Shown: positions 35,705 through 39,642 of the stretch, piece by piece | How positions within the stretch are numbered: the stretch's first letter is position 1 | How the letters are laid out: each line of letters begins with the position of its first letter | Origin: Calditrichia bacterium | GTDB taxonomy: Bacteria; Calditrichota; Calditrichia; JAJRVZ01 | Assembly (NCBI GenBank): GCA_023132435.1 | Contig: JAGLYF010000014.1 | Location: forward strand, 1 to 54,760 | DNA: 54,760 nucleotides | Direction: 5' to 3' | Program-made: the position numbers and the translations under genes | The notes under the pieces: model-generated | What the model was told of the DNA's origin: nothing | What the model saw: the letters and a program-made list of their open reading frames with translations, nothing else | The model's database searches: none

Positions 35705-36982
35705 ATGGTAAATAATACCACAAAAAAAATCTTAGTTGATAAAATCACAAAAGATGAAAATATCCTCAAAGGGGAACACTATATAAATCTTTTAAAATAT
35801 ATTGTAAACTGTTCAATCAAAGGTTACATCCCCAATGAGATAAATATCGCTGAGGATGTATTCGGGAGGAAAAATTTTGATCCCTCAGAAGATACAATGG
35901 TTCGGGTTTATATTTATAAATTAAGAAAGAAATTGGATGAATATTATAAGAACGAGGGAAAATCTGAAAAGGTTCAAATTCGAATTCCAAAAGGGCATTA
36001 CAAAGTAGAGTTTCTATCAAAAAAGGATAAAAAGAAAGATACAATTACAAACATATTACAGAGTAAAAGACTGATCATCTTCGTTACTTCAATACTTATT
36101 TTATTTATAATAATTATTGTACAATGGTTTCACAATACATCTCTTAAGCACCAGTATCAATCTTCTAAATCATTTGACTTAAAAAATACAATCTGGGATA
36201 CTTTTCTAAATAGTGAATTACCAACTACAATAGTTATCGGTAATACGTTTATATTTACAGAATTTTGTGAAGATATAAAGAGTCTGCGAATTGTCCATGA
36301 TGAAAATGTACATAATCAGGCGGAATTTGAAAATTTCCTTAATCAAAATGCTCTAAGTCCCGAAAATTACTTTTTAGCTTCATGGGAAGTTGTAGCCAAA
36401 TCGAGTTTAATTAACATCTTAAAAATTCAGCCCATATTTTCATCTCATATGAAAACTGTAAATATAAAAACATCAGATCAAATTACCTGGGCGGATGTGA
36501 GAAGATCTAACATTATTTATCTCGGACATATTGAGACCCTGGATATATTAGAGAAGGCATTCCCGGCAATTTATTTTGAAGTTTTTGCAGAATTTAATAT
36601 GGATATTAAAGGAATAGAAAGAAAAATTCATATTGCCCACGATAATTTAGATAGTGTTTATACATTTATTGATCCTGAACTCACCCGAAAAAAATTTGTG
36701 AGAGATTATGTGATTTTGTCAAAGGCTCCAGGTCCACTGAATAATGTTATCTTTTTTATCATCTCATTTCACCACATTGGTCGGCTGGAGATCATTAGAA
36801 TTCTTACCGCTAAAGAGTTATATAAAGAGATTGAAAAAAAATTCACAGTTAATGTAACTGACGGGATTATGCCGGAATATTTTGAGGCGGTTCTTGAAAT
36901 CAGTGGTTATGATGAGACTGCGCTAGTTATTGATGTTAAACATTATTATGAAATTCCAGCGGGATTCATATTAAGAGACTAA
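35705..36982 (+). CDS. ToxR/CadC-like transmembrane regulator: N-terminal winged helix, one TM helix, unassigned sensor domain
   Basis: INIAEDVFGRKNFDPSEDTMVRVYIYKLRKKLDEYYKNEGKSEKVQIRIPKGHYKVEF wHTH; RLIIFVTSILILFIIIIVQWF TM; about 280-aa C-domain. Confidence 0.8.
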   Translation: MVNNTTKKILVDKITKDENILKGEHYINLLKYIVNCSIKGYIPNEINIAEDVFGRKNFDPSEDTMVRVYIYKLRKKLDEYYKNEGKSEKVQIRIPKGHYKVEFLSKKDKKKDTITNILQSKRLIIFVTSILILFIIIIVQWFHNTSLKHQYQSSKSFDLKNTIWDTFLNSELPTTIVIGNTFIFTEFCEDIKSLRIVHDENVHNQAEFENFLNQNALSPENYFLASWEVVAKSSLINILKIQPIFSSHMKTVNIKTSDQITWADVRRSNIIYLGHIETLDILEKAFPAIYFEVFAEFNMDIKGIERKIHIAHDNLDSVYTFIDPELTRKKFVRDYVILSKAPGPLNNVIFFIISFHHIGRLEIIRILTAKELYKEIEKKFTVNVTDGIMPEYFEAVLEISGYDETALVIDVKHYYEIPAGFILRD

Positions 36983-37748: not shown

Positions 37749-37865
37749 TATGTTATGGATGGTGGTAAATTGATGTATTTCAGGAATATTTTGAGATATA
37801 GTAATTTAAAAATGGTTGAGAGGTATTTCGCTAAGAGTCATCCAACAATCTCTTTTAATTTTTGA
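37749..37865 (+). pseudogene. Tyrosine recombinase C-terminal relic (copy 1)
   Basis: Plus-strand reading YVMDGGKLMYFRNILRYSNLKMVERYFAKSHPTISFNF*; shares 25 nt (37803-37827) exactly with copy 2. Confidence 0.55.
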
Positions 37866-38524
37866 ATTAACATCTCAAAGCGCTGGGTCTGCGTAGCCGG
37901 CTCGAGATGCGCCAATACTGCCTCATGCAAAGACACATCATCTTTCACGACTCTTAATTCAGCCATTAAAAAAGATTTAACATCTGTATCTGATTCCAAA
38001 ATATCCTTTACCAGTTTTTTTCGATTATCCAAAACATAAATTATATCTTCAAAATCATGGCTGGTTCTGGGATCTGTCCCCCTCGCTTTATAGGCGATAA
38101 ATTTTGACGCCAAATAATAAGATAGCGGCATAATATTAATGTTGACTTCATCCAGATTATAATTTTGTAGATGATTAAATCCTGCATCAAACCAGGGATT
38201 TGACGGCGCCCACCCAACCTCTTTAGTGGACATCACATCTAAGAGAATATTCTTGTAAGTGAAACGGCATATTACCTTTTCATCTTTCGCAAAGTGGATG
38301 CCTCTCTCAGCAAATTTTTCCCTGAGTTTTTCTAATTCTGATAGTGATGTTATTTCAAGTATAATATCAATGTCCTCCGTCGGACGGATCTCCGGAGCAC
38401 CAGGATCGTCAATATAAAGTACCACTACGGCACCACCCACAAAAACAATTTTTTCGTTTAATTCCCCAAAAACATTAGCTACCGATTTTATAGCCTTGAT
38501 AATTTGTGTTCTGTTCTTTAACAT
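37838..38524 (-). CDS. Nucleotidyltransferase (AbiEii/MNT-like), putative toxin-side partner
   Basis: KIVFVGGAVVVLYIDDPGAPEIRPTEDIDIILEI (G-G...D-x-D), SHDFEDIIYVLDNR. Confidence 0.75.
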   Translation of the reverse strand: MLKNRTQIIKAIKSVANVFGELNEKIVFVGGAVVVLYIDDPGAPEIRPTEDIDIILEITSLSELEKLREKFAERGIHFAKDEKVICRFTYKNILLDVMSTKEVGWAPSNPWFDAGFNHLQNYNLDEVNINIMPLSYYLASKFIAYKARGTDPRTSHDFEDIIYVLDNRKKLVKDILESDTDVKSFLMAELRVVKDDVSLHEAVLAHLEPATQTQRFEMLIQKLKEIVG

Positions 38525-38568
38525 TTATTAATATGCTTAGTAGTCTGTACAACAAGAATGTATTCTAT

Positions 38569-39081
38569 TTAAAAAATTCGTTTGCGGAATTCCTCTACAG
38601 CCTTTTGTTTTTCACGTGCACGCCCGAAGCGAATGGCATCAACCATGGAAATCAATTCATACAGGGTGGGATCTTTCGCACATGCGTCCGGCACACCGGG
38701 ATGCAAAGGTTCAATGGCCTGACCGCGCACCTCACCCTCTGCCCATGGCCAAACATACGATTCATCAGCTGAAAAATAATAATTAAGTGGAGGTGCGCTA
38801 TGTGCAGTTGGCATGCCACGTTGAATACCCCCCGGTTCGGTTGGATATACATAGCCAAGACCGTGTTCCAGGAAATCAAGTAAATTATTTTTCATTAACC
38901 GCTTTTTGTCATTAGAAAGGAGTGAGGCCAGTTTTGATCGGTTTAGTGATTCACTCACTTCGCTTGCACTAATATTTAAGGATAGAGCTAAATCTTTGGC
39001 CATCCAAGGTTTATCTTTTAGTGCAGCAATTTTTAAAAGAATTATAATATCATGTGGCCGCATACCTTTATGTTCTTTCAT
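38569..39081 (-). CDS. HTH regulator partner of the nucleotidyltransferase (ORF track start at 39150 probably too long)
   Basis: From internal ATG at 39081: MKEHKGMRPHDIIILLKIAALKDKPWMAKDLALSLNISASEVSESLNRS; longer start would run through a perfect palindrome at 39101-39119. Confidence 0.7.
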   Translation of the reverse strand: MKEHKGMRPHDIIILLKIAALKDKPWMAKDLALSLNISASEVSESLNRSKLASLLSNDKKRLMKNNLLDFLEHGLGYVYPTEPGGIQRGMPTAHSAPPLNYYFSADESYVWPWAEGEVRGQAIEPLHPGVPDACAKDPTLYELISMVDAIRFGRAREKQKAVEEFRKRIF

Positions 39082-39100
39082 ACGATACACTCCAATGCAT

Positions 39101-39119
39101 AATTCGCGATTCGCGAATT
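39101..39119. promoter_or_regulatory. Operator-like perfect inverted repeat AATTCGCG-ATT-CGCGAATT
   Basis: 8-bp perfect arms, 3-nt centre, 20 bp upstream of the likely HTH-gene start. Confidence 0.6.
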
Positions 39120-39154
39120 GGAAATTAACATAATTAAAAGGCAATTTCAAGTAT

Positions 39155-39379
39155 CATTACACTTTCGCCTCGCATTATGTCATAAATGGTGGTGATCTAA
39201 TCTCTTTAAGGGATATTTTTTTATAAAAAAATTTAAAAATGGTTGAGAGGTATTCTCATCTATCTTCAGATTATAAGCGAAAAATGATTAATAATCTCAC
39301 TGGTAAGTTTTCGGTTTGCCAAATATTTGCCAAAAATGAAGAAAGTAGTTCTTCCCCACAAAATAACAAAGCCTCGTAA
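39155..39379 (+). pseudogene. Tyrosine recombinase C-terminal relic (copy 2) beside tRNA-Lys
   Basis: Plus-strand reading HYTFASHYVINGGDLISLRDIFL*KNLKMVERYSHLSSDYKRKMINNLTGKF...KAS*; integrase box II with an in-frame stop at the GH position. Confidence 0.75.
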
Positions 39380-39398: not shown

Positions 39399-39407
39399 TT
39401 AGATGTG

Positions 39408-39480
39408 TGAGCCAGGTAGGATTCGAACCTACGACCAACGGCTTAAAAGGCCGCTGCTCTACCAACTGAGCTACTGGCCC
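39408..39480 (-). tRNA. tRNA-Lys (anticodon TTT)
   Basis: GGGCCAGTAGCTCAGTTGGTAGAGCAGCGGCCTTTTAAGCCGTTGGTCGTAGGTTCGAATCCTACCTGGCTCA; cloverleaf arms pair; CCA not encoded. Confidence 0.95.
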
Positions 39481-39575: not shown

Positions 39576-39642
39576 CCGTAGGGCGTAGTGCGTGGGGCGT
39601 GAAGCGTAGAGATTAATACGCTCAACGCCCTACGCACCACGG
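39576..39642. repeat. Inverted repeat made of GCGTRG-type units
   Basis: CCGTAGGGCGTAGTGCGTGGGGCGT ... ACGCCCTACGCACCACGG. Confidence 0.55.

Follow-up and report, generated by a model that had tools for sequence, protein, structure and literature searches.

Two adjacent genes encoding a small helix-turn-helix (HTH) protein and a nucleotidyltransferase (NTase), preceded by a palindrome, raise the question of whether they form a self-regulated toxin-antitoxin (TA) unit and, if so, of which kind. The pair lies in a 54,760-nucleotide stretch of a Calditrichia genome, hereafter referred to as the window (Table 1). The explanation that we hold to be reasonably well supported is that of a mobile two-gene type-IV-like TA module, in which the HTH protein would act as autorepressor and antitoxin and a MenT-like NTase as toxin; judging from its sequence, the pair is probably functional and autoregulated.

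Table 1. Features of the HTH-NTase locus in the window, and loci carrying the second operator class
Feature	Position	Strand	Basis or remark
Direct repeat copy 1, 79 bp	37749..37827	+	78% identity with copy 2; final 23 bp without mismatch
NTase gene: DUF1814/AbiEii-family nucleotidyltransferase, 228 aa (PDC-M21B), putative toxin	37838..38524	-	Pfam AbiEii, PDC-M21B, invariant residues, fold matches
HTH gene: winged-helix HTH candidate autorepressor / putative antitoxin, 170 aa (PDC-M21A)	38569..39081	-	PADLOC PDC-M21A, homologue-supported start, structure model
GGAG ribosome-binding site of HTH gene	39090..39093	-	sequence
Candidate operator, perfect 19-bp palindrome AATTCGCGATTCGCGAATT	39101..39119	.	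sequence; conservation across phyla
Direct repeat copy 2, 79 bp	39176..39254	+	repeat comparison
tRNA-Lys(TTT)	39407..39480	-	synteny with same-family genome stops here
TGTCC-class operator loci	upstream regions of L037, L038, L046, L048, L103-L106, L112		go with SK[ST]E recognition helix

Because the HTH homologues share the N-terminal start MKEHKGMRPQDI with the window protein and a GGAG ribosome-binding site precedes the ATG at 39081 by 8 nt, this ATG is likely the start of the HTH gene, and the longer TTG start at 39150 is in all likelihood incorrect. The first-pass annotation had pointed out that the longer ORF reads through the palindrome, which is true. The gene order was also as it had stated, with the HTH gene first and the NTase ORF 44 bp downstream, a bicistronic arrangement that agrees with AbiE by gene order alone. 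A 425-aa protein (35705-36982, plus strand), encoded convergently with the NTase gene, had an N-terminus that weakly matched a Trans_reg_C-like DNA-binding domain.

The palindrome that had been reported upstream of the HTH ATG was recovered as AATTCGCG-ATT-CGCGAATT, exact over 19 bp and separated from the ATG by 19 bp. The 3.70-Mb assembly contained no further perfect copy and one 2-mismatch site elsewhere, and chance expectation in the window was 0.17 matches at up to three mismatches. No sigma-70 promoter was found at the operator by a simple scan. Conservation upstream of homologous pairs, which had been suggested as a check and whose absence was to count as refutation, was borne out: the TTCGC-class core WWTCGC-N5-GCGAWW reached a score of at least 10 upstream of 32 of 51 homologue loci, compared with 7 of 8,383 background windows drawn from the same loci, related sequences being included in the operator counts. 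This core was present upstream of homologues in Bacteroidota, Cyanobacteriota, Deinococcota, the phylum of the window, and some Proteobacteria. Further, its two outer positions varied symmetrically, the pair 2/16 being complementary in 35/37 as against 25.6 after shuffling, a figure inflated by sequence relatedness.

A second operator class, TGTCC-N4-GTCCTAGGAC-N4-GGACA, was found at a similar distance to the gene in most Proteobacteria among the loci without the TTCGC core; for a few members (L036, L042) this assignment rests on spaced half-sites only. The recognition helix SK[ST]E accompanied the TGTCC palindromes and S-x-S-E the TTCGC palindromes. Ten loci fetched later comprised five of the TGTCC class, four of the TTCGC class, and one near match to TTCGC (L109), and they fitted the helix wherever it was readable; the exception to the rule was L066, with an SKSE helix and neither operator class. 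Since the operator class changes together with the recognition helix, this covariation, the strongest evidence available, points to the HTH protein itself as the palindrome binder, and it is highly probable that the protein binds the operator and is thereby autoregulated. The two classes also offer a clean set for decoding repressor DNA specificity.

The HTH protein matched PADLOC model PDC-M21A (E 5.2e-44; residues 24-169 on 51-202 of 205). Its structure model contained an N-terminal HTH and a C-terminal mixed domain with helices H129-136, H138-152, and H155-169. The first-pass annotation had been unable to assign the long C-terminal region to a named antitoxin family, and this stands: the region is conserved across the family and matched no Pfam family or solved fold, nor did the domain have any sequence or fold link to AbiEi/MenA. 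Identity with AbiEi was rejected, as no AbiEi match was obtained in Pfam among 30 members or by fold search. In a profile comparison with the true AbiEi of the same genome, only the HTH part aligned, with a probability of 6.9%. Likewise, no AbiEi-type MenA antitoxin (MenA3/MenA4) was matched in Pfam, PDB profile, and fold searches. Within the C-terminal domain, R156-E157 was invariant in 25 of 25 paired HTH proteins and lost in both large clades of solo HTH proteins (Daejeonella, Fodinibius); it was also kept in three solo HTH proteins, which counts against a role tied to the NTase.

The NTase scored 30.4 bits against Pfam AbiEii (cut-off 22.5) and matched PDC-M21B over its full length (E 3.7e-46). 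It carried VGG-x19-DID, and the residues invariant in the alignment were G30, G31, R47, T49, D51, D53, D96, K141, R148, D157, and D160. All four DUF1814 motifs (I-IV), which are needed for AbiEii toxicity (PMC3985639), were kept and invariant in the NTase family. The profile match in the PDB was MenT1 (8an4), and the fold matches of the structure model (pLDDT 90) were phosphorylated MenT1 (8rr5) and TglT (6j7n), the closest bacterial toxins; the MNT antitoxin was matched by fold at E of about 1 only. The MNT/HEPN reading was rejected on this ground and because the partner is a winged HTH protein, not HEPN. Thus, of the AbiE/MNT-type module originally proposed, the AbiEii-type NTase and the TA-like operon were retained, whereas the MNT assignment and an AbiEi-type antitoxin were not. 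T49 aligned with the phosphorylation sites T39 of MenT1 and S78 of MenT3. Alignment A1 had T at this position in 27/27 members, and alignment A6 had T or S; overall the residue was Thr, rarely Ser. In MenT1, antitoxin-induced autophosphorylation of T39 blocks the toxin (PMC11375011).

Taken together, the pair is the PADLOC phage-defence candidate PDC-M21, with the HTH protein as component A and the NTase as component B. The third gene (PP2C, component C) was absent downstream of 37838 in the window, and the window copy was therefore assigned to a two-gene form without PDC-M21C. A third gene followed the pair in Pseudomonas, Acinetobacter, Caballeronia, Agrobacterium, Providencia, and others, and in the proteobacterial relatives it was, where scanned, PDC-M21C, a PP2C-type phosphatase. 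In addition, a metallophosphoesterase gene was located 3' of the pair in Legionella and 5' of the pair in one phage-like contig; neither arrangement was present in the window.

The NTase gene was tightly associated with its partner. Each of the nine strong M21B genes detected in 297 Bacteroidota genomes adjoined an M21A gene (hypergeometric p of about 1e-12), and in the phylum of the window (40 genomes) the pair was present in all four genomes with the NTase. The HTH gene also occurred alone: M21B was lacking in 9 of the 18 Bacteroidota genomes with M21A, three of those M21A genes lying on short or cut contigs. Solo HTH genes in Daejeonella and some Fodinibius relatives had mostly kept the operator, and in Daejeonella the solo gene had a fixed chromosomal place, flanked by a truA-side cluster and an MFS transporter gene. 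In the tree, solo forms were interspersed with paired ones and a minimum of four switches between the two states was required, which fits repeated loss of the NTase. Stand-alone HTH genes that keep their operator show that the regulator can be maintained in the absence of the NTase, and their intact operators imply a role independent of it. In one locus (L051, 700-1370), a solo HTH gene was followed by a small gene and then by a gene for a zeta-toxin-like P-loop kinase; this kinase was rejected as an alternative HTH partner, as its own small partner gene lies between them.

A second copy of the pair was identified in the same genome (contig C316, 37156-37989; locus L021), with its own operator, a variant. 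Its HTH protein was 75% identical to that of the window, and an early stop near its end left most of the HTH protein in place. The NTase was deleted in-frame between residues 72 and 203, with loss of the catalytic middle. A canonical AbiEi_2/AbiEii type IV TA pair adjoined this decayed copy (C316, 38535-40344; L021, 4536-6342).

Several observations relate to mobility. At the tblastn level, 123 plasmids carried the HTH gene and 109 the NTase gene, usually adjacent in annotated examples, and integrase or relaxase genes often adjoined the plasmid-borne pairs. The NTase gene was present on five phage-like contigs, and on three of these the palindrome accompanied it; neither the window NTase nor an Agrobacterium HTH protein found a match among phage records. 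The window pair was bracketed by the direct repeats, whose exact 3' part had no further copy in the assembly and which are possible cassette borders; no such repeats were found flanking the second copy on C316. The pair was located 3' of tRNA-Lys, at the very point of the synteny break, and no adjacent integrase gene was seen. Beyond the tRNA, the same-family genome carried different genes, which prevented the definition of an exact empty site. The tRNA gene is a likely insertion hot spot and the pair likely a discrete inserted cassette. An imperfect inverted repeat (CGTAGGGCGTAGTGCGT / ACGCTCAACGCCCTACG; 39577-39634), possibly a dispersed palindromic repeat, was present between the tRNA-Lys and response-regulator genes.

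From these comparisons the following mechanism is proposed. A dimer of the HTH protein would bind the palindrome and repress the HTH-NTase operon. Free NTase would arrest growth, most likely, judging from homology, by nucleotide transfer to tRNA, and would be neutralised by the C-terminal domain of the HTH protein, including R156-E157; we consider it quite likely that the NTase is a toxin held in check in this way. Neutralisation would most likely proceed as in MenAT1/MenAT3, with the HTH protein triggering autophosphorylation of the active-site T49, and this phosphorylation step is put forward tentatively. Because T/S49 was invariant whether a phosphatase was present or absent, the residue may serve catalysis only. 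More speculatively, in the three-gene proteobacterial relatives the PP2C of the operon would remove the phosphate from T49 and re-arm the toxin. For TglT, a phosphatase was considered by its authors to be required for reactivation, the host PP2C PstP acting only slowly and unspecifically (PMC7205606), and an operon-encoded PP2C fits the phosphatase so postulated. Extended to the whole family, PDC-M21 would consist of phosphorylation-gated NTase toxins, in which the HTH protein both represses the operon and induces T/S49 autophosphorylation and, in three-gene forms, the PP2C of the operon or a neighbouring metallophosphoesterase reverses it; this generalisation is conjectural and, at present, unlikely. 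If it is true, that enzyme would be the reactivating phosphatase postulated, though not found, in the TglT work, and two-gene forms such as that of the window would rely on a host phosphatase or on fresh toxin.

The palindrome could have nothing to do with the HTH protein, being a chance sequence, a terminator, or the site of another factor. It exists as a single perfect copy and short palindromes do arise by chance, yet its conservation upstream of the start across phyla and the covariation of operator class with recognition helix make this exceedingly improbable. Given binding, the HTH protein could still be mainly a conventional autoregulated transcription factor that also acts elsewhere in the genome, the NTase being an optional addition. 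Solo HTH genes that keep their operator at fixed chromosomal places, as in Daejeonella, would suit such a role; however, the operator complement of its own genome amounts to one perfect copy, one 2-mismatch site, and the variant at the second copy, the scatter of solo forms fits repeated NTase loss, and R156-E157 has disappeared from both large solo clades. We regard a mainly regulatory role as quite improbable. The roles within the pair might also be reversed, with the NTase modifying the HTH protein or another protein as an AMPylation-type antitoxin or regulator, in the manner of MNT on HEPN toxins. Polymerase-beta-fold NTases can be antitoxins, and the HTH protein could be the target, but no HEPN gene is adjacent, the fold matches are the toxins MenT1 and TglT with the MNT antitoxin at E of about 1 only, and the HTH protein persists without the NTase, never the reverse. 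A reversal is very unlikely.

The remaining alternative to an addiction-type TA is a phage-triggered defence pair: infection or a ligand would be perceived through the C-terminal domain of the HTH protein, and more NTase would be made once the operon is derepressed. In its favour, PADLOC classes the family among its phage-defence candidates (approach: PMC12988326, PMC10855318), the C-terminal domain is conserved without an antitoxin homologue, and solo HTH proteins exist. Such candidates are largely predictions, found by 'guilt-by-embedding' (PMC12988326, PMC10855318); our literature search found no paper naming PDC-M21 and no anti-phage assay for the family, which has no known defence phenotype. 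Moreover, strong NTase genes were never found without the HTH gene in the genome sets above, and plasmid-borne pairs beside integrase or relaxase genes fit maintenance as well as defence. A defence pair is somewhat unlikely, and the TA module described above is the reading that we prefer.

AbiEii/MenT-type NTase toxins are among the commonest TA and defence proteins. Here the same type of NTase has an unrelated HTH protein as its putative antitoxin, and on many plasmids the operon also includes a phosphatase gene, so that the question of reactivation becomes directly testable. The family was already catalogued in PADLOC; the two operator classes, the R-E motif, and the phosphatase link are added here. 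Both window proteins match the PDC-M21 models over nearly their full length and in the same gene order, the difference being the missing C gene. With AbiE (PMC3985639, PMC7319586), the pair shares an NTase with four DUF1814 motifs, a regulator gene in first position, and inverted repeats at the promoter, but its HTH protein is not AbiEi by Pfam, profile, or fold. The MNT/HEPN system shares the polymerase-beta NTase fold; here, in contrast, there is no HEPN partner, the NTase is much larger, and the fold match is at E of about 1. MenAT1 and MenAT3 (TglT/TakA) of M. tuberculosis have in common with the pair the NTase fold, the spacing R-x-T/S-x-D-h-D, and the conserved phosphorylatable T/S, whereas the putative antitoxin of the window is much longer than MenA1 and shows no sequence relationship to the AbiEi-type MenA3.
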